This document shows positions 13,790 through 24,210 of a stretch of DNA of 24,210 bases, piece by piece (within the stretch, counting starts at the first letter, position 1; each line of letters starts with the position of its first letter). A program made the translations under genes and the position numbers. The stretch is taken from positions 1-24,210 of IMG/VR virus record IMGVR_UViG_3300013233_000067; one strand, 5' to 3'. The stretch comes from a virus. The notes beneath the pieces were generated by a model. The model did no database searches. It saw only the letters and a program-made list of their open reading frames with translations, and was not told the DNA's origin.

Positions 13790-14157
13790 ACCAACATCAC
13801 CGCCTTCACCGTCCGCGTCGCGTCCGTCGTCGAGGGCGTCTCCATGATCGCCTTGACCTCGTAGGCCGTTGCAACCTGAGCCGGGTCGACGCCTTGCGCG
13901 GAATCGAGCGCAGAGAGAGAGCCGAGGTACAGATAGTCCCCGAGCGCGATTGTCCCGGCATGATACACCGTCGCCCGGGCGGTCACCTCTTCGCCGTTCT
14001 GGTCGAGGATCACAACCGACTTCTCCTGCCAGCGAACCGAGATTTCCACTCCGGCGGAAAACGTCTTCACTCCGAAACCGCTCACACCGGAGTACACCCA
14101 ATGCACCGCCGTCTGTCGATAGGCGCCCGAGGGCCACCCTGAACGGCTAGGCGTCAT
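13786..14157 (-). CDS. head closure / stopper-like protein
   Basis: The 123-residue protein includes 'AYRQTAVHWVYSGVSGFGVKTFSAGVEISVRW' (12-43), then 'VVILDQNGEEVTARATVYHAGTIALGDYLYLG' (48-79) and 'TAYEVKAIMETPS'. The layout, with 'tavhW...G.d.fG..tF..p..i..RW' followed by a 'NG.E......VY....I..GDYL..G' sheet, matches small connector or stopper proteins found between the gp6-like connector and gp10 in many siphoviruses. The ATG at 14157 lies 11 bases inside the upstream gene with a GGGAG site. Precise identity as stopper is inferred from gene order. Confidence 0.72.
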   Translation of the reverse strand: MTPSRSGWPSGAYRQTAVHWVYSGVSGFGVKTFSAGVEISVRWQEKSVVILDQNGEEVTARATVYHAGTIALGDYLYLGSLSALDSAQGVDPAQVATAYEVKAIMETPSTTDATRTVKAVMLV

Positions 14158-14530
14158 TCGGAACTCCCATCACCTCGAACTTCGCGGAGGTCGCCCCACC
14201 GTTCAGCGAAGCGAACTTCCCTTGGAAGTCCAGAATCATCACCTGCTGTCCATAGGCCGTGAATTCCAGCCCTTTGCCGCTCTTCCCGTGATAAGTGGTC
14301 GCCGCGTCTCCGATCTTCTCCTGAGCGATCTGAGGGTCTCTCACGGAGGCGAAGTGAGCCGCGAGCCACATCTCGATTTTCGCGAGGAGGGCGGAATCAT
14401 AATCCGCATCGGAGCCGACGAGCTTCGTCACGATCACGTTGGACGTTTCGAGAAACGGCGTGATCTGCTCTTCGGTCAGCGACGTATCCATGATGCTGAG
14501 AACTTCGGCCTCGGTCACTCGATTGCTCAT
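14147..14530 (-). CDS. head-tail connector protein (gp6-like)
   Basis: The 127-residue protein begins 'MSNRVTEAEVLSIMDTSLTE' and continues 'EQITPFLETSNVIVTKLVGS' (21-40), then 'LLAKIEMWLAAHFASVRDP' (48-66) and 'GLEFTAYGQQVMILDFQGKFASL' (87-109). This mostly helical N-half and 'YGQ.....D..G.LA.L' ending are recurrent in the connector proteins of the gp6/adaptor type. The ATG at 14530 overlaps the sulfotransferase-like stop by four bases (ATGA), so the modification cassette and the tail genes are one transcriptional unit. The longer reading frame above 14530 is not needed, as the conserved N-terminus starts here. Confidence 0.75.
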   Translation of the reverse strand: MSNRVTEAEVLSIMDTSLTEEQITPFLETSNVIVTKLVGSDADYDSALLAKIEMWLAAHFASVRDPQIAQEKIGDAATTYHGKSGKGLEFTAYGQQVMILDFQGKFASLNGGATSAKFEVMGVPNDA

Positions 14531-15255
14531 GTTCCTGTCTCCACGGAGGAGGAGGCGCCGAACACCCCGCTCGCCCAAAGTGCCGGGGAAAGCGCATCAT
14601 TCGCCCGGTCGTCATCCCACGTCATACCGAGATCCGTCACCAGTCGCTTCGCCGCGTCGAGCTTTCCGGAGAACATCCGCCCCGGCCAACATTCCAGCGA
14701 CAGGCTGGCCGCCTTCGCGATTTCCTCGAAGCGATCCGTGTAGCTGTTCGCCCACGCCGGAATGTCGCCGACAGCGTCGCGGATGTATCGTGTTGCCATG
14801 CACGAGGCGATCACGTTCTTCTCGTCGCGCCGGACGATCACCCAGCGAGACGCGGGGAACGCTTCCAGCCAGACGGGCCACGCGAGACTGGCGTCTCCGC
14901 CCCAGTAGATCCACGGGCCGCCTTCATAGCCGTGGCCGTGCAGATAGTGGAGCATCCGCCTCCGCCATACCGGCGCGACCGCTGACGCAACCGACCGAGA
15001 TCGTTCAACGGCTCCGCCTGTCACCCCCCGCCCGGTCGGCGCTTCCCGTATCCCACGAAAGTACGGGCGGATGATCCGGTCCCGAAGCTCCGCGTTTGGC
15101 CCGTGCTTGTCGTCCGTCTCCGAGTCCCCGGGCCACGCACCGAACGCTCGGAGGAGGGAGGCAACGATCCCGATTCCCGAGCGCGGAATCCCCGTCACGA
15201 TGATCGGCTCTTCGTGTCCCGCAAATCGATTGATGTTGTAATCACCCACGCTCAT
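14527..15255 (-). CDS. sulfotransferase-like P-loop protein
   Basis: The 242-residue protein has a P-loop-like 5'-phosphosulfate motif 'IIVTGIPRSGIGIVASLLRA' (18-37) and the 3'-phosphate motif 'WVIVRRDEKNVIASCM' (138-153), with Arg143 and Ser151 eight residues apart as in PAPS-dependent sulfotransferases. A helical C-terminus ('YTDRFEEIAKA') follows. The family moves sulfate from PAPS to hydroxyl or amine groups, commonly on carbohydrates. Here the acceptor is unknown; two glycosyltransferases upstream suggest a sugar. It is the last gene of the inserted cassette and overlaps both neighbours (ATGA). Family members in phages have also been annotated only as P-loop proteins, so the activity is inference. 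Confidence 0.75.
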   Translation of the reverse strand: MSVGDYNINRFAGHEEPIIVTGIPRSGIGIVASLLRAFGAWPGDSETDDKHGPNAELRDRIIRPYFRGIREAPTGRGVTGGAVERSRSVASAVAPVWRRRMLHYLHGHGYEGGPWIYWGGDASLAWPVWLEAFPASRWVIVRRDEKNVIASCMATRYIRDAVGDIPAWANSYTDRFEEIAKAASLSLECWPGRMFSGKLDAAKRLVTDLGMTWDDDRANDALSPALWASGVFGASSSVETGT

Positions 15256-15953
15256 TGCTTCCTGTGCGAGAGGTGAAGAGCCACGGCTCGCCCGACAAAA
15301 CAGAAGTGAACCCCGCGTCTACTAAGGCGGTTCGCAAGGTCTTCATCACTTCGTCCGGGGAGGCTTTCGTCGTACCCGCCGACAGCGTCGAAATCTTCGC
15401 GGTGGATCGCCCCGAGGAAGAGGAACGGCGCCATCCGCTCGACGCCGGTATACAAGCGCAACCGCGCCGGGCCGACCAGCGGAACCGGGAGCCGATCGCC
15501 GTTCGTCTCGGGTGAGAACACATTCGCATCTTCCTCGATCGCGTATGCCTCCGGCTCTGCAAGGATCGCTTTGAGTTCCCGCGGGCCACCGTCGAAGACG
15601 CGAGCGAGAGCCACCGTCCCCGGAGCGCAATGCTCCAGAAGCGGGTCGACGCAGTTCGCAACATGGCAAACCTCCCCGCCTTGCTCGATCACGACGTCCG
15701 AAGACGCGATCGAGTGACCGATGTTGAACACGGCGCCGGGATTCCGTCGATAGGCGCCGTCTCTTTCCAACCGCCGGAACGTGCCGCCGGGGAACCGCGA
15801 ACGGAATCGAGCGAGAACCTCCGGCGTTCCGTCGGTCGAGGCGTCGTCCACCACCACCGTCTCGACGCCGTCATATTTTCCGGCGATCGAGGATAGCCCG
15901 GCGGAAAGCTGCCGGTAACGGTTGCGCGTTGCGATCACGATAGATGCCCTCAT
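15252..15953 (-). CDS. GT2-like glycosyltransferase
   Basis: The 233-residue GT-A fold protein opens 'MRASIVIATRNRYRQLSAGL', followed by 'VETVVVDDASTDGTPEVLARF' (30-50, nucleotide-sugar binding strand with D36-D37). Later come 'FLGAIHREDFDAVGGYDES' (179-197) and 'SDEDLANRLSRRGV' (202-215), which supplies the usual acidic acceptor-site residues. The metal-binding DxD expected after the donor region is not canonical: the equivalent stretch reads 'VVIEQGGEVCHV' (88-98). Donor and acceptor are unknown. I chose the ATG at 15953, which shares one base with the radical SAM stop (TGATG); a GTG at 15956 is possible. It is the fifth gene of the cassette. Confidence 0.83.
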   Translation of the reverse strand: MRASIVIATRNRYRQLSAGLSSIAGKYDGVETVVVDDASTDGTPEVLARFRSRFPGGTFRRLERDGAYRRNPGAVFNIGHSIASSDVVIEQGGEVCHVANCVDPLLEHCAPGTVALARVFDGGPRELKAILAEPEAYAIEEDANVFSPETNGDRLPVPLVGPARLRLYTGVERMAPFLFLGAIHREDFDAVGGYDESLPGRSDEDLANRLSRRGVHFCFVGRAVALHLSHRKQ

Positions 15954-16927
15954 CACACGAACTCCCTGTGGTTGACCGGCTCCGTCATGATCTCAAGCGC
16001 CGCATTGTACTGGTCATAGTAGCACCGAGAACAGATCGAGCCGTTGAAGTTCTCGCCGTTCTCCCAGAGCCGAACCATGTCCCGCCAATGTCCGAGCCGC
16101 ATCCTTTCGTTCACGTCTCGCGGCGCCTCCTCGATCGCATACTGAGCGCCGCAACAAGGGTAGAGGTAGCCGTCTGCCGCGATGACCGGCTTCAGCAAAC
16201 TGATCAGACACTTCTCCCGGCCCTTCGCGTAGACCTTTCGCCCCTGATAGATCACAAGGTCGCTGCCGGGGAGACCCTCGATCTCTTCCATGACCCCGTC
16301 CATGTCCGGCACCCGATCCAGATCAAGGAGGTCTGAGACGATCCGAACGTGCGTGAAGCCATGCGCACCGGCGAACCGAACCGCTTTCCTGAGCCGCGCC
16401 ATGTCCGGCTTCGCCGTCAGGACATAGCTGAACGCCCAGTCGATTTCGGGATGCGCTTTCACGCTTACAGACATTCGCTCATAGTATTCATCCGAGGCAT
16501 CCATCTCGTCCGACCGCGATACGCGGAGCCATGTCACGCCCTTCGACTTGAGACGGTGAAGGAGGTTTCCGTTGCTGACCAGACCGACAACCAGCCCAAG
16601 GTCGTTCGCCGCGGCGATCGTCTCGTCGAGGTGCGGGTAGAGCATCGGCTCGCCTCCGCCGCTGATCGTGACGGCGCGGGTTCCGAGATAGGCGAGCGTT
16701 CCGAGGAGATCCTCCATCTCGTTCCACGCCATGCGGACCGTGTTCTTCCGGTCGGCGCAGGAGCAGAACGAACAGGAAAGATCGCAGGCGTTCGTCGGGT
16801 AGAGCTGCGCGTGGTACGGGACGATCCGGCCGTCTTTGTTCATCGGCCAGACCTTCAGGAGCTTGGCCGGAAACGTCCCCGCAACAGAGTACGATTCCAC
16901 CCGGTGCTTTTCATCCTGCGTCTGCAT
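15953..16927 (-). CDS. radical SAM protein with SPASM-like C-terminal cysteines
   Basis: The 324-residue protein has the canonical CxxxCxxC in 'CDLSCSFC' (C48, C52, C55), preceded by 'AQLYPTNA'. The 'ISGGGEPMLYP' glycine motif (88-98) that holds SAM and 'GLVVGLVSNG' (111-120) follow. A C-terminal set, C240, C258-C259 ('LYPCCGAQ') and C299-C302 ('ICSRC'), could bind an auxiliary iron-sulfur cluster as in SPASM or Twitch enzymes. Such enzymes perform radical chemistry on peptides or sugars; the substrate is not shown here. I chose the ATG at 16927, with a GGAGG site upstream, giving a 17-base overlap with the methyltransferase gene. Flanking glycosyltransferases suggest carbohydrate chemistry. 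Confidence 0.9.
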   Translation of the reverse strand: MQTQDEKHRVESYSVAGTFPAKLLKVWPMNKDGRIVPYHAQLYPTNACDLSCSFCSCADRKNTVRMAWNEMEDLLGTLAYLGTRAVTISGGGEPMLYPHLDETIAAANDLGLVVGLVSNGNLLHRLKSKGVTWLRVSRSDEMDASDEYYERMSVSVKAHPEIDWAFSYVLTAKPDMARLRKAVRFAGAHGFTHVRIVSDLLDLDRVPDMDGVMEEIEGLPGSDLVIYQGRKVYAKGREKCLISLLKPVIAADGYLYPCCGAQYAIEEAPRDVNERMRLGHWRDMVRLWENGENFNGSICSRCYYDQYNAALEIMTEPVNHREFV

Positions 16928-17483
16928 CGTCGCCCTCCTCCTCGTCCCGATTCCAGACGGCATAAAGCATTCGCTTTGCCATCTTCCGCATCATCGTGGA
17001 GATGGCGAACTCGGCGTTCTCCAGCTCGGCCCGTGTCCAGCCGGATTGATGCTTCTGAAACTCGTTCACCATGCGGGGAACACCGTACACCCTTTGAACG
17101 GCCGAGGCGGATTCTTCCGGCGTCTGCTTTCTGAATCCCTCCGGGGTGTAGAGAATGACGCGACGCCGCGCAACCTGCTTCGCCGCTTCGAGAAGGCGAT
17201 CCCCCTCGCGCTTCCGAAGATGCTCGATCACGTCGATCAGCAGAACCAAGTCAAAGGAACCGGGCTTTTGCCGCGCACACCAGTTGATGGCGTCCTCGCA
17301 GTAGAACCGCGCTTCGTTGTCCTTGACGTACCGGAGATAGGGTTCGTAGATCTCGACACCGACGCGGCGAGGAACGATATTTCTGATGGCGTGGAGATAC
17401 TCCCCGAACATCGCACCAAGCTCCACGACGGAATCGAAACCCTCAGCGTCGCGCTGGACCATACGGGCAAGTTCAGCGTCCAT
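16911..17483 (-). CDS. class I SAM-dependent methyltransferase
   Basis: The 190-residue protein has motif I 'SVVELGAMFGEYL' (18-30), the acidic end of strand 2 in 'VGVEIYEP' (41-48), 'FYCEDAINW' (60-68), and 'FDLVLLIDVIEHL' (77-89), the standard post-motif. 'HQSGWTRAELE' (145-155) near the end is common in small-molecule and sugar methyltransferases. No DNA methylase catalytic motif (DPPY/NPPY or PCQ) is present. The ATG at 17483 lies 11 bases inside the glycosyltransferase gene, and a G8 run just before it acts as the ribosome binding site. Third gene of the cassette; likely adds a methyl group to the glycan or its precursor, by context only. Confidence 0.85.
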   Translation of the reverse strand: MDAELARMVQRDAEGFDSVVELGAMFGEYLHAIRNIVPRRVGVEIYEPYLRYVKDNEARFYCEDAINWCARQKPGSFDLVLLIDVIEHLRKREGDRLLEAAKQVARRRVILYTPEGFRKQTPEESASAVQRVYGVPRMVNEFQKHQSGWTRAELENAEFAISTMMRKMAKRMLYAVWNRDEEEGDDADAG

Positions 17484-18210
17484 GGTTCCCCCCCCAATGC
17501 TCGATCATCCACGGCAAGAGGGAAACACCGCGAGGCCGTGGGGTTCCGTGAAAGCAGATTACCCGCGCATCTTCAGGCAGCTTGTTCCGCTTCGGCCGGA
17601 CGTCATACTTGTAGCTGTAGATCCCGCTGAACGAATCCTGAATCAGCTGGAAGCCGTCGCGAATCTGAAACTCTTCATACTGCTTCACGAACCACTCCTG
17701 ATCTCCGCGAACCTTCCCGTCTCGCATGATCATCTGCGGCGTCGTCTGAACCGTGCCGCCGAAGTATTGAGGCTCGTCGAGAAGATCCTCCTCGAAGAGC
17801 GGGAGAATCCAGTCCGGATTGTAGCCGTCCGGGCAGACGATCATGCCCGTCTGGATCGGCGGGCGGGGCTTGAAGCCCTTCAGGAACGCAAGATTGCCTT
17901 CGATCTGAAGGAGCTTCGCGATCGGCCCGACGATCACGGTGTCGAGGTCGAAGTAAACCCACGGCCCCGGAAGACGGAACAGCTCCATCTTCGCCCACCA
18001 TCCGCGCCACCCGTTCCGAAGCTCGATCACGTCGTCCACGAGAGAGCGGTCGAAAGCCGCCGGGTGCGCGTCAGTCAGAACGGTGAAGCGGTGCGGCTCG
18101 TCTCCCATCCCCCGCCGCACCTGAGTCGCCAGCCGGTGGACGTCGTCCACGATAAAGCGCCGCCGCCGGGAGGTTCGGTAGACGCAGAGGATTCGAGGGA
18201 TCGCGCTCAT
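17473..18210 (-). CDS. GT-A glycosyltransferase with DxD motif
   Basis: The 245-residue protein has 'RILCVYRTSRR' (6-16) at the N-terminus, 'HRFTVLTDA' (40-48), and 'GWWAKMELFRLPGPWVYFDLD' split at 70-90, where D88-L-D90 is the metal-binding DxD. Later 'GTVQTTPQMIMRDGKVRGDQEWF' leads to a C-terminal 'VICFHGTPRPRGV' with a histidine typical of this clan and 'EHWGGN'. It resembles GT8-like and unnamed phage/giant virus transferases using UDP- or GDP-sugars. Donor and acceptor cannot be read from sequence. The ATG overlaps the previous stop by four bases (ATGA). Its 3' end has a G8 run that doubles as the Shine-Dalgarno of the methyltransferase gene. Confidence 0.85.
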   Translation of the reverse strand: MSAIPRILCVYRTSRRRRFIVDDVHRLATQVRRGMGDEPHRFTVLTDAHPAAFDRSLVDDVIELRNGWRGWWAKMELFRLPGPWVYFDLDTVIVGPIAKLLQIEGNLAFLKGFKPRPPIQTGMIVCPDGYNPDWILPLFEEDLLDEPQYFGGTVQTTPQMIMRDGKVRGDQEWFVKQYEEFQIRDGFQLIQDSFSGIYSYKYDVRPKRNKLPEDARVICFHGTPRPRGVSLLPWMIEHWGGNHGR

Positions 18211-18974
18211 AGCCCACCTCCCCCGGCTTCCAGCGGGCGCGTTTGCGGCGATTTCTCCGCCTCGCCGCCCGTTTCTACCGCCTCGGCCCCGTTTTCGTCG
18301 CCGTGGGCGCCGCTGCGTGTCTGGTGAGCTTCCTGCCGGGGGGGGTAGGTCTCTTCCGGCGAGACGACCGGAAACTCCGTCAAGCCGCTTCCCGGGGTCG
18401 CGTTCGTACAGGAAATCTTCAGCCGGGCAAGATCGCGGGCGACCGCAGGGAACGGCACCAGAAAGCTCCGATACGGGTTCTTGGCCGGGGGCGCCGGAGT
18501 CTTCGCCTTCTCCTCGTGCCAGTTACAGTACTCATCGACCCGTCGCATATCGAAGCCGTACAGAACGATGTCTGTCGCCCCAAGGTGGACGGCGAGATTG
18601 ATCGCACATGCACCCGAAGAGGTGTTCCATACGAGGACGCCCCGATCGCTCGAAATCCCCGGCGGCGAGTTCCGCTTTCGGACGATACGAATACCCGGGT
18701 CGCTGAACGCTGGCTCCGCCTCGCAGGTGGAGACCTTCATCCCGGAGAAGTCCCGGAGCCGCTCGCCGTAATCCATGTAGAACGCCTTGTCGTTGAAGAA
18801 CATGACATCCGCCCACGGCGCCGCCATGAAGGCGTGGTTGACCGCGATGACGTGCTGGCCCTTCAGGCGGGAGAGGTCCACCTGATTCAGCCCCGGACCT
18901 CCGCCGAGAATATAGCAGCGGGCGTTCTCCCACAGCTTCGGCACGACCCAGAAGCCATCGTTCCGCGCTCTCAC
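18207..18974 (-). CDS. DUF115/MptE-like Rossmann-fold protein of the glycan cassette
   Basis: The 255-residue protein has a nucleotide-binding-like 'CYILGGGPGLNQVDLSRLKG' (20-39), followed by 'HVIAVNHAFMAAPWADVMFFND' (41-62) and 'NTSSGACAINLAVHLGATDI' (117-136), then 'VLYGFDM' (137-143). The pattern of 'GGGPSL', 'N.a....p.aD....D' and 'SG..A..LA..LGA..I.L.G.D' is shared with DUF115 and 6-hydroxymethylpterin diphosphokinase MptE-like proteins, often found with glycosyltransferases. The last 45 residues are charged, low complexity. I place the start at GTG 18974, which overlaps the previous stop (GTGA) and has a GGAGG site six bases upstream; the longer frame overlaps the upstream gene. Function is uncertain; it starts the cassette. 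Confidence 0.72.
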   Translation of the reverse strand: MRARNDGFWVVPKLWENARCYILGGGPGLNQVDLSRLKGQHVIAVNHAFMAAPWADVMFFNDKAFYMDYGERLRDFSGMKVSTCEAEPAFSDPGIRIVRKRNSPPGISSDRGVLVWNTSSGACAINLAVHLGATDIVLYGFDMRRVDEYCNWHEEKAKTPAPPAKNPYRSFLVPFPAVARDLARLKISCTNATPGSGLTEFPVVSPEETYPPRQEAHQTRSGAHGDENGAEAVETGGEAEKSPQTRPLEAGGGGL

Positions 18975-19438
18975 GCCCCGCCTCCTTTCGCCGCAGCCTC
19001 CTCGATCGTCGCCTCCGCTTCTTCCCGTGTCAGCGTCTCCCCCACCGTTTCGCCGGTCGTGAGATTGACCACGTCGAATGCTCTCTGATCTCTTCGACCC
19101 GGAACAATGCGGAACTCGCCCGCCTCTGTCACGGGCCGCGCCGCGTCTTCTTCGGTGGTGGTTCCGCCGACAATCGCCTCCGCCTCTTCCTTCGTCAGCG
19201 GTACGTCGTTCACTCGGCCGCCCTCGGGATTGATCACATCCCACCGTCCGTACTTCGCCGGACGCGCGATCAGACCGACGCGGGGCTGCGGGGGCGGCGG
19301 ATCGGGGTCAAGCTGCTCGAACTTGTCGATCGCGCCGCCCAGCTCTTTCTTCTCGCATTTCACAATCTGCCCCGGGATGACTGTCTCCCCCGAACGCAGA
19401 CGGTGTCGACCCATCCCTTCTTTCATCCGAAACCGCAT
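18971..19438 (-). CDS. capsid-adjacent protein with two internal repeats
   Basis: The 155-residue protein has no firm family name. The first 45 residues ('KEGMGRHRLRSGETVIPGQI', then 'AIDKFEQLDP') resemble a small domain seen in proteins next to phage capsid genes. A proline run (46-51) is followed by two related units: about 56-90, 'GRWDVINPEGGRVNDVPLTK' and 'EEAEAIV', and about 108-146, 'RAFDVVNLTTGETVGETLTR' and 'EEAEATI'. Each unit shares aromatic-D-V-(I/V)-N, a turn, then LT(K/R)EEAEA. The protein could cover the capsid or aid head completion, but that is inference. It is the last gene before the inserted cassette, with a GGGGGAG site upstream. Confidence 0.6.
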   Translation of the reverse strand: MRFRMKEGMGRHRLRSGETVIPGQIVKCEKKELGGAIDKFEQLDPDPPPPQPRVGLIARPAKYGRWDVINPEGGRVNDVPLTKEEAEAIVGGTTTEEDAARPVTEAGEFRIVPGRRDQRAFDVVNLTTGETVGETLTREEAEATIEEAAAKGGGA

Positions 19439-19495: not shown

Positions 19496-20470
19496 CTACG
19501 ACAGGTGAACGATCCCGCTGTTGCCGTCCTGATCCGCACGGATCTGCGGAACGATGATCGACATCACCTTGAAGTGGTTGACCAGACCACCCTTGACTTC
19601 CCATTCGACCGTGGTGGGATTCAGGCCGATCACGACCCGAGAGGTCTCCGGCACGAACTCGGCGAGGACAACGTTGTCCGCCGTGAGGCGATCCGCCGTC
19701 TTCACGTCGATGATGCCCTCGGTCTCGCGGAGACGCTGACGAATCGTCATGTCGCCATTCGCCTTGAAGTCGTCATCGAGCGGGGCATCGTATCCGGTCG
19801 GGACATAGAGCATCCACGGCCCGTAGTGCTTCGCGTCGATGCTCGCCTGCTTCATGGCCAGAACGTCGTCGAGGATGTTGTTGCCCGTCTTCGACGAGTC
19901 ATCCCACGCCGTGGAGAGCGAGACGGTATTCCGGTTCGGGTGATCGGTGTAACCGCGAACGGTTCCGCCGCCGAACGTATATGCCGAAGCGCCGTTGAAG
20001 AGCGTGTCCTCGATCTTCTCTGCGACCTTCCGCGACGCCACAGCCGCATAGGTCACGTCAAGCGGCTGGCCGAGCTGCCGTGAAGACTCCAGAACCCGGA
20101 GGTTCACCTTGAAGTCTTTGTGCGTCAGCGGGAGAGGAAGAGATTTCAGGCTGTAGGCCACCCGATCCATGTTCCCCTCGTCTTCACCGTCCATCGACAT
20201 TCCAGCGTCGGTCATGTCGCTCGCGTCCTCGTACTGAAGAACGGTCGTTCCGAGACCACGCCCGCCGAGGTCGAGTACCAGACCCCGCGAAACGAGATCG
20301 CCCACTCCGACGAGCCGATCCTTCGCAATGCCGACCACGGCATCGTCGAGCGTTTTCCACTCGTCCTTTCGGAGAAGCGTGTTCGTCCGCAGGGCGTTGA
20401 CGTTGAAACCGTTTGCCATAAGGCGAGACGCTACGCTTCCATAAGCGGCGCCATTCAGAATCGCATCCAT
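19496..20470 (-). CDS. major capsid protein (HK97 fold, encapsulin-like)
   Basis: The 324-residue protein contains 'LKSLPLPLTHKDFKVNLRVL' (108-127), then 'LGQPLDVTYAAVASRKVAEK' (133-152) and 'IEDTLFNG' (153-160), followed by 'GGGTVRGYTDHPNRNTV' (167-183). The run of 'P.P..HKDF....R.L..S...G.PLD' then 'AA..VAE..ED.LF.G' is shared with encapsulins and encapsulin-like phage capsid proteins. C-terminal segments 'LYVPTGYDAPLDDDF' and 'MSIIVPQIRADQDG' fit the A-domain and final strand. The real start is the ATG at 20470, which has a full GGAGGT site, not the longer frame upstream. Strong initiation fits an abundant structural protein. No large N-terminal delta domain is seen; scaffolding comes from the DUF2213 protein. 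Confidence 0.9.
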   Translation of the reverse strand: MDAILNGAAYGSVASRLMANGFNVNALRTNTLLRKDEWKTLDDAVVGIAKDRLVGVGDLVSRGLVLDLGGRGLGTTVLQYEDASDMTDAGMSMDGEDEGNMDRVAYSLKSLPLPLTHKDFKVNLRVLESSRQLGQPLDVTYAAVASRKVAEKIEDTLFNGASAYTFGGGTVRGYTDHPNRNTVSLSTAWDDSSKTGNNILDDVLAMKQASIDAKHYGPWMLYVPTGYDAPLDDDFKANGDMTIRQRLRETEGIIDVKTADRLTADNVVLAEFVPETSRVVIGLNPTTVEWEVKGGLVNHFKVMSIIVPQIRADQDGNSGIVHLS

Positions 20471-22470: not shown

Positions 22471-22673
22471 GATTCCCTCCGTTTCAGCGGCGCGGGGCGC
22501 TTTGTGTCTTGCTCGAACAGCAACCCGCCATCCCCGTCCACCGCCGAGGTGTGCTGCCCGCCTTCCTCCCAGATCACGGCCGGTATTTCTTCGAATGCCT
22601 CGCACGCCCGGAACGCCCGGCGACGATCATAACGAGCGCAGGACATACACGCAGGCGCCGCCATTGTTGTCAT
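22467..22673 (-). CDS. small cysteine-rich phage protein
   Basis: The 68-residue protein contains 'CMSCARYDRRRAFRACEAFE' (C9, C12, C24), then 'EIPAVIWEEGGQHTSAVDGD' and 'GGLLFEQ'. This pattern, a CxxC, a third Cys, 'AF...IP..I......H....GD.G..FE', is shared with small proteins often encoded next to MuF-type genes in phages; their role is not known. The cysteines with a histidine could bind one zinc ion. The ATG shares one base with the MuF stop (TAATG), and the G8 run at 22686-22679 serves as Shine-Dalgarno. The stop overlaps the DUF2213 start, so it is likely made with the head proteins. Confidence 0.68.
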   Translation of the reverse strand: MTTMAAPACMSCARYDRRRAFRACEAFEEIPAVIWEEGGQHTSAVDGDGGLLFEQDTKRPAPLKRRES

Positions 22674-24210
22674 TACAGCCCCCCCCTTGCCTTCCGTATC
22701 ATGTCAATTGCCTCCTCGGTTTTCCTCATGATTTCACGAGCCATTGCCCGTGGTGTTTCTGAAGATGTCATTTCTGAATATGCTTCCGCGAACATCTCAA
22801 GAACATTCGTCCCGCCATATTCGGAGAGCCTCGCCCTTCGGTCGGCACTCGTCATCGTGCGTATCTCGTCCCAGAGAGTTTCCAGCTGCTTGTTCGGCAG
22901 GTTTGGGTGACCCATAATGAGGCCATCGAACTGACTCAGATACACTCCGCCCCGCTTGACCTCGACGCCGAGCGCCGTCCTATGCCGTAGCTGTCCGTAA
23001 GTAGAATCAATCACATGGCCCATTTCATGACGAATAATGGAGCGCGGGGAGTTCGCCCCCTTAGGCGCCCAGCCGTTGGCAGCATCGTTCGCCTTTGACA
23101 TGCGGAGGCTGGCCTCGGCGTCTTTCCCGAACCATCGCTCGTTGAGAGAGATTCTCCGTTCGAGGCCCGACCAATGCCCGTAAGTGTTCGAGGAACTAAA
23201 CGCTGATTTCCCAGCCACCCGGAAGCCTGCCATGTGATCCGCCACCTCGGGGTATTTCTTCAGGACCGCGAGATATTCCTCTACCATGTCACGAGCAATC
23301 GCCGGGCTAACCTTGTTCAGACCAGAGAACCCCTTGCGACCCTCGGAGCCCACGATCTTTCGATTGAACGGAAGATTCTTGTTCCCCCACCCTTGAAGTT
23401 TCACCGAGGTGTCGAGGTTTGCCGGAACAGACTCCGGAAGTGGATCCCCGACAACCCATTCACCAATCGGCTTCTTCTTCGGCTTCGGCGCCCGCTTCGG
23501 TTTCGCCTTCGGCGGAACAACCCGCGTCGGTGTGACCAGCTTCGGTTTCTGCATCGGAACCCGTCCGCGCTTACGTATGATCTTCGGAATCGCCACGCAC
23601 CGGCAGTTCGGATGAACAGGGATCAGGCTCTCCGCCTCATCGAGTGTGTAGTCGGTCTTCTGCGCGAGGTCCCAGCAGTCCGGGCAAGCCGTCGCCGCGA
23701 TCTGAAGTTCGGCCTCGACGGTGACGCGGACCTCGAAACCCTGATCGGCAATCTCCTTCTCAAGAAGTTTCATCTCGCCGATGTTGCCCTTGTGGTGCGC
23801 GGCGATCGTTTCCGTCCGTGCGATCATCCGCGCCCGGGTCTTTCCGATCACCTTGACGGTGTGGTTCAGGTCTTTGACCAGCTCCCGGGCGATCGTCCTC
23901 GGGTGCTTCCCCTCGGCGAGACCGCGAGCAAGGCCGTCCGTCAGACCGTCCGCGAGCTGTCGACGGAGACGGGCGTTCGTCACGGCGGTGACTGTCTTCA
24001 GGTCTTCATAGGTCCGCGAGTAGATCAGCCCGACGCGCTCGGCGTGGAAAGGACGGTTGAAGGCGCCCGCAATCCCGCCCAGCCCACGCTCGCGCTCCGG
24101 CGTCAGGAACTGTCCGTAGATCCCCTTCGCGCGAAGCTCGCGCCGGATCTCAGAGCGGGAGCGGAGGATGCCGCGCTGATAGGCCGTCTGGATATAGGTG
24201 TCCGTCCACG
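22673..24210 (-). CDS. MuF / SPP1 gp7-type minor head protein with C-terminal metallopeptidase-like domain (partial)
   Basis: The reading frame stays open to the window edge, so the N-terminus is missing; 511 residues are visible. The first 205 or so form the MuF domain: 'NRPFHAERVGLIYSRTYEDL', 'KTRARMIARTETI', a CxxC in 'ACPDCW' and the signature 'IPVHPNCRC'. A Lys/Pro-rich linker (codons about 23560-23460) joins a second domain of about 215 residues with 'IIRHEMGHVID', an HExxH zinc site (codons 23029-23015), and a downstream 'NVLEMFAEAYSEM' that may give a third, glutamate ligand. MuF proteins enter the head with portal; known MuF fusions carry toxin or enzyme domains. A GTG at 23983 would give a shorter product that lacks part of the MuF domain. 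Confidence 0.85.
   Translation of the reverse strand, partial: WTDTYIQTAYQRGILRSRSEIRRELRAKGIYGQFLTPERERGLGGIAGAFNRPFHAERVGLIYSRTYEDLKTVTAVTNARLRRQLADGLTDGLARGLAEGKHPRTIARELVKDLNHTVKVIGKTRARMIARTETIAAHHKGNIGEMKLLEKEIADQGFEVRVTVEAELQIAATACPDCWDLAQKTDYTLDEAESLIPVHPNCRCVAIPKIIRKRGRVPMQKPKLVTPTRVVPPKAKPKRAPKPKKKPIGEWVVGDPLPESVPANLDTSVKLQGWGNKNLPFNRKIVGSEGRKGFSGLNKVSPAIARDMVEEYLAVLKKYPEVADHMAGFRVAGKSAFSSSNTYGHWSGLERRISLNERWFGKDAEASLRMSKANDAANGWAPKGANSPRSIIRHEMGHVIDSTYGQLRHRTALGVEVKRGGVYLSQFDGLIMGHPNLPNKQLETLWDEIRTMTSADRRARLSEYGGTNVLEMFAEAYSEMTSSETPRAMAREIMRKTEEAIDMIRKARGGL

Follow-up and report, generated by a model that had tools for sequence, protein, structure and literature searches.

The stretch of DNA considered here (the window) is the whole of the IMG/VR viral contig IMGVR_UViG_3300013233_000067, 24,210 bases in length, in which the main genes all lie on the minus strand. 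Between a small gene that follows the capsid gene, termed rep, and the gene of a DUF4054 connector, it carries a cassette of six genes for predicted glycosyltransferases, a methyltransferase, a radical S-adenosylmethionine (SAM) protein and a protein with a predicted sulfotransferase fold, all of which are intact open reading frames without internal stops. Based on the comparison of this junction with that of its relatives, the six genes probably represent an allele of a virion-glycosylation island, hypervariable in content, that has a fixed site in a largely uncultured phage lineage. The genes of the junction are listed below from the capsid gene onward, with the family matches and their E-values in brackets.

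19496..20470, minus strand: major capsid protein, DUF6260 or encapsulin-like HK97 fold (Pfam PF19774 4.4e-29; phrog_771 1.6e-28); left border of the hotspot
18971..19438, minus strand: rep, a small two-copy-repeat protein (weak phrog_20529), directly after the capsid gene
18207..18974, minus strand: DUF115-like or Maf-like glycosyltransferase with a GTG start (phrog_4603 2.2e-29); fixed first gene of the island
17473..18210, minus strand: DxD glycosyltransferase of the P1 PmgQ / P7 HdmD family (phrog_1962 1e-27), with the conserved D
16911..17483, minus strand: class I SAM methyltransferase (PF08241, Methyltransf_11, 3.6e-5, over the cut-off), motifs kept
15953..16927, minus strand: radical SAM protein (PF04055 9.2e-11), with CX3CX2C and a four-cysteine auxiliary, twitch-like C-terminus
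15252..15953, minus strand: GT2 glycosyltransferase (PF00535 1.7e-10, over the cut-off)
14527..15255, minus strand: sulfotransferase-fold protein of a divergent subclass (model fold; Sulfotransfer_3 0.0012); usual last gene of the island
14147..14530, minus strand: DUF4054 connector-type protein (PF13262 0.014; phrog_37884 1.1e-10; conserved synteny); right border of the hotspot

From rep to the DUF4054 gene, successive genes overlap by 4 (GTGA), 4 (ATGA), 11, 17, 1 (TGATG), 4 (ATGA) and 4 (ATGA) bases. The six overlapping genes at the capsid-to-connector junction, as given in a preliminary description of this DNA, were thus reproduced to the base, including every overlap. The connector had been called gp6-like there; by Pfam and PHROG, the island is followed by a DUF4054-like gene, and a likeness to gp6 was not shown.

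The same junction was collected from relatives by scans with the capsid protein (16 loci, most of which have sugar genes, differing in kind, between the capsid and the connector), with a DUF115 alignment (562 relatives, 80 kept) and with a capsid alignment (557 relatives, 80 kept). Annotation by profiles grown from the window genes gave 108 complete junctions from the capsid gene to the DUF4054 gene, or 77 without near-duplicates, and in the latter the gap between these two genes ranges from 418 to 8848 bp with a median of 4276. The DUF115-like gene is the first, with only rep before it, in 70 of the 71 filled junctions, and a sulfotransferase-like gene is the last in 53. Six of the 77 lack DUF115, namely four with an empty gap of about 0.55 kb (L016, L018, L019 and L194) and two in which it is shifted (L104 and L114). 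In L104, L114 and L209 the DUF115 gene is found just after the DUF4054 gene, not before it, and the entry point of the island can therefore shift by one gene. Among the capsid-sampled loci, a set not chosen for sugar genes, DUF115 occupies the junction in 71 of the 72 that reach far enough past the capsid gene; because the kept loci are the closest by capsid sequence, this frequency describes a subclade only. The cassette had been regarded as unusual, but within this capsid lineage such an island is the norm. The junction is empty in two cultured phages that are more distantly related, Brevundimonas phage StAshley and Halorubrum phage Hardycor1, and these sites, together with the empty ones above, bear out an insertion at one junction. 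A chance arrangement is ruled out by the recurrence of the same order in more than 70 non-redundant loci, and an insertion peculiar to the window by the lineage-wide occurrence of the island. Since rep is present also where the junction is empty, it was rejected as a cassette member and assigned to the head module; a PHROG search for it as a head fibre gave nothing firm. The window rep (18971-19438, minus strand) and orf6.5 of Pseudomonas phage D3 (L029 3840-4127) are both weak matches to phrog_20529, in different halves, and these small genes next to capsid genes may belong to a single family that is shared by unrelated heads.

The interior of the island turns over strongly. The 427 cargo proteins in the 71 filled islands form 119 clusters (81 singletons), and at 40-69% capsid identity the sharing of interior families is low (mean Jaccard index 0.10-0.15), about half of the pairs having none in common. 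Above 80% capsid identity, nearly all interior families are shared, as judged from six such pairs only. Gene orders close to that of the window are found in L042, which has DUF115, the DxD glycosyltransferase, two methyltransferases, radical SAM, GT2, the sulfotransferase and DUF4054, and in L038 and L041. Elsewhere, representative cargo includes the glycan enzymes GT9, GT11, GT29, a DXD-type glycosyltransferase, uridine diphosphate (UDP)-glucose dehydrogenase and an NAD epimerase, as well as a transketolase, zinc dehydrogenase, hexapeptide and cupin proteins, several methyltransferases, a B12-type radical SAM protein and a second sulfotransferase. None of the 427 cargo proteins is predicted by simple hydropathy to span the membrane more than once. 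A radical SAM-methyltransferase fusion lies in the island of L041 (12471-14042), and the B12-type radical SAM protein in that of L189 (2938-4206).

The flanks of the cassette are real head and tail genes: MuF-like, protease-like, head decoration and capsid genes on one side, and connectors, the major tail protein, the tape measure and tail genes on the other. A cassette common in bacterial polysaccharide loci would speak against the phage link, and a scan of bacterial and archaeal genomes yielded 43 loci with DUF115 relatives. The best-scoring of them are mostly beside the same head genes, for example on a Zixiibacteriota chromosome (CP070742) and in Thalassobaculum litoreum DSM 18839, which is in culture, and the phage link is thus supported; in L205 and L208 an apparent HK97-type capsid gene is on the same contig (contigs matched by number). 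The T. litoreum prophage (L209) carries genes for the capsid, rep, DUF4054, DUF115, a sulfotransferase-like protein and a methyltransferase. Some weaker matches (e.g. L236 and L237) have glycosyltransferase neighbours only. A free bacterial polysaccharide locus, which was also considered, is argued against by these best-scoring loci. Among the flanking genes of the window, that of the MuF-like minor head protein (22673-23983, minus strand) encodes a C-terminal metallopeptidase-like region with HEMGH, an HExxH motif (Pfam M91/M90, about 0.006).

An AlphaFold2 model of the DUF115-like protein, built with 54 aligned relatives, had a mean predicted local distance difference test (pLDDT) score of 86.3. 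Its best match in the Protein Data Bank was Maf from Magnetospirillum, an enzyme that O-glycosylates flagellin (5mu5; Z = 16.5 over 194 residues, root-mean-square deviation 4.2), followed by the Campylobacter sialyltransferase CstII (Z = 12.8), with unrelated folds at Z = 4.4 or less; Foldseek alone put CstII first. The fold of the central Maf_flag10 domain is present in the model. Maf enzymes attach nonulosonic acids to Ser or Thr of flagellin (PMC11339370), and we infer from the model that the DUF115-like protein acts like Maf. It is not filed as Maf, because it has the central domain only and misses the Pfam cut-off. A role in priming on protein fits the nearly invariant first place of its gene.

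Of the interior genes, that of the phrog_1962-type DxD glycosyltransferase is the commonest (55 of 77 junctions). The GT2, methyltransferase and radical SAM proteins of the window have intact motifs. In the radical SAM protein, C48, C52 and C55 of CX3CX2C and four more, auxiliary cysteines in a twitch-like arrangement are invariant (alignment A2), whereas a full SPASM domain is below the cut-off (13.8 vs 21.5 bits). The best families found for this protein are generic, and none of them allows its substrate to be named. Because its relatives in other viral contigs, as read by eye, are mostly within clusters of glycosyltransferase, methyltransferase or sulfotransferase-like genes, the partnership of radical SAM and glycan genes seems stable.

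The last protein of the cassette is weak by sequence, its Sulfotransfer_3 match of 19.6 bits lying below the gathering score of 27. Its model (pLDDT 76.5) matched best the tyrosylprotein sulfotransferase (TPST) TPST1 (5wrj; Z = 14.5), with carbohydrate 3-O-sulfotransferases at about 11.2 and many sulfotransferases above 10, and a sulfotransferase fold of the last gene is supported by this prediction. In the 5'-phosphosulfate loop, 53 of 72 aligned copies have RSGTS/T, but the window has RSGIG, with loss of the Thr; the FEN motif is kept in 51 of 72 copies, and the window is without this segment and its Glu. The nearest relatives of the window protein include a likewise divergent group. R142/R143 and S151, placed at the 3'-phosphate site by motif position, are invariant (alignment A3). 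Since conserved motif residues have been lost, sulfation by the window phage itself is doubtful, and sulfation within the lineage is likely. APS (adenosine 5'-phosphosulfate) kinases are the enzyme class that makes the sulfate donor, and a gene of this type directly adjoins or overlaps that of a canonical sulfotransferase in L012 and L103 (by Pfam) and in L062 and L038 (by clustering). In the window, Pfam and PHROG-type family searches recognized neither an APS kinase nor a sugar-nucleotide gene among the cassette genes, and with the Thr and the Glu missing, the earlier view of a complete set for transfer, modification and sulfation could not be maintained. A tblastn search for the canonical sulfotransferase in the cultured-phage and plasmid collections gave no match. 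Tandem sulfotransferase genes, a canonical one and then a divergent one beside the connector, were observed in L046 (8120-9623).

How might these genes work together? While still in the cytosol, before assembly or in the course of it, a virion protein would receive its first sugar, possibly a nonulosonic acid, on Ser or Thr from the Maf-like DUF115 protein. The DxD and GT2 glycosyltransferases would lengthen the chain, the methyltransferase and the radical SAM enzyme would modify it, and the sulfotransferase-fold protein, usually the last, would cap it with sulfate in most relatives and may be inactive or altered in the window phage. The acceptor may be sought among the capsid, decoration, rep and tail proteins, none of which is singled out. 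Through the swapping of interior genes, virion coats would differ between relatives, and the glycan might serve to mask the particle from receptors, antibodies or competitors, or to stabilize it. The preliminary description had placed a methylated or sulfated glycan on the virion; a glycan-building, phage-linked cassette expressed with head and tail genes agrees with this, but the sulfation by the window copy is doubtful.

It is unlikely that the island blocks superinfection by altering the O-antigen or capsule on the host surface, whether in a lysogen or at a late stage of infection. Glycosyltransferases, epimerases and UDP-glucose dehydrogenase are also genes of the lipopolysaccharide type, O-antigen conversion is known for phages, and pelagimyophage genes of a similar kind were interpreted as changing the host surface (PMC7029224). 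However, the cargo yielded neither a flippase nor a polymerase nor a GtrA-like protein, the cassette overlaps head and tail genes, and the DUF115 fold is nearest to a protein O-glycosyltransferase. Membrane-based O-antigen conversion (Gtr), for which a multi-span flippase or transferase was sought in the 71 islands by simple hydropathy, was rejected. Because multi-span cargo proteins are lacking, lipid-linked export is unlikely, and this lack, together with the overlap with head and tail genes, favours as the best reading a glycan assembled in the cytosol on a virion protein; a host-surface change, also offered in the preliminary description, is disfavoured for the same lack of spans. Modification of phage DNA, with glycosylated hypermodified bases as the product, is very improbable. 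Radical SAM enzymes do take part in some DNA hypermodification pathways. Phage DNA is known to be glycosylated by phage glycosyltransferases (PMC12619734), but neither the genes of the window nor the examined cargo included a recognizable nucleotide hydroxymethylase or base kinase, and the late position in the head operon speaks against such a pathway, to which the sulfotransferase and Maf-like folds are not suited.

Two other alternatives concern the last protein alone. Sulfation of tyrosines of virion proteins, rather than of sugar, is suggested by its top structural matches, which are tyrosylprotein sulfotransferases with the margin in Z score given above, and by its weak sequence matches, which are mainly to TPST. 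It is nevertheless quite improbable, as the acceptor is not told by the fold, glycosyltransferase genes accompany this one in nearly every island, and the conserved motif residues are absent from the window copy. That very divergence might mean that the protein has given up catalysis and serves instead as a partner of the adjoining connector, in assembly or binding: it is retained beside DUF4054 despite the loss of its motifs, and in L046 it is the divergent copy, following the canonical one, that is next to the connector. This, too, is rather unlikely, given that in many relatives the copy looks active or is absent and that the likely 3'-phosphate site has kept its conserved R and S.

Several observations weigh against a virion-glycosylation island. 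The DUF115-like protein scores below the PF01973 gathering threshold (19.3 vs 34.6 bits), and with 255 amino acids it is without the N-terminal Rossmann-like and C-terminal helical domains of Maf, consisting of one domain and a low-confidence tail; the window copy also has G where 98% of copies have S. The sulfotransferase-fold protein of the window departs from otherwise conserved motif residues, and rep, one of the candidate acceptors, occurs without the island. In the stretches read, the DUF115-type genes of CcrColossus, Domovoi, P1 and XacN1 are away from the capsid gene, and therefore the capsid/connector site is not essential. In addition, the contig is probably partial.

Glycan genes among structural genes are also found in better-known phages. 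Mycobacteriophage Corndog has an O-methyltransferase and three glycosyltransferases (gp35-38) between the portal and the protease (PMC4351075), and a passage in PMC11600133, citing Freeman 2023, reports that enzymes of this type modify the capsid and the tail tube. By gene content, Corndog and the window are alike in having glycosyltransferase and methyltransferase genes inside the structural operon, whereas the island differs in its capsid/connector junction, its radical SAM and sulfotransferase-fold genes, its fixed first gene and its strong swapping of content. In P. aeruginosa phage D3 (orf6.5-orf7), a DUF115-type gene comes shortly after the capsid and before the connector, and Tetraselmis viridis virus S20 (TvV-S20; TVGG_00050-00041) has at this site a DUF115-type gene with a multi-gene cassette of glycosyltransferases and methyltransferases, the last gene of which is PmgQ-like by eye. 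Both, however, have other capsid families, a sulfotransferase-fold gene was not noted in them, and the accessible literature contains no description of virion glycosylation for either. Among the head-tail genes of D3 (L029 5897-7292), orf12 is GT9-like by eye and orf13 is annotated as a methyltransferase, and these two and orf7 may form a split glycan cassette. In phages P1 and P7, PmgO and PmgQ (HdmD in P7) form a pair of DUF115 and phrog_1962 types in one operon, as in the window, but away from the capsid/connector junction in the stretch read. The Maf proteins of Magnetospirillum (5mu5), Aeromonas and Clostridium share the fold of the central domain with phage DUF115, which has this domain only. 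Bacterial O-antigen and capsule loci likewise have conserved flanks and a swapped glycan-building interior; unlike them, the island is in a phage head operon and is without genes for membrane export or polymerization. No paper describing the island was found in the open-access literature, subscription papers being outside the search, so that this absence is not proof.

In short, virion glycosylation is already known, and what is new here is a glycan island with fixed ends and a variable interior throughout a lineage. The island may be a serotype-like locus for the phage's own particle, an idea to which we give slightly less than an even chance: a fixed priming glycosyltransferase, a usually fixed capping enzyme and an exchanged interior of more than 100 families would yield differing virion glycans, sulfated in some relatives with the help of a phage APS kinase. 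If this is true, phage coats would vary as bacterial O-antigens do: genes would be exchanged at a single site, and a Maf-like enzyme would provide the entry step. The idea offers a concrete reading of genes that have lacked an explanation, D3 orf7 and P1 pmgO/pmgQ among them, and it makes the island a source of many compact enzymes for glycan building, with radical SAM and sulfotransferase types among them. A further question is which selective forces would make the coats of phage particles differ.

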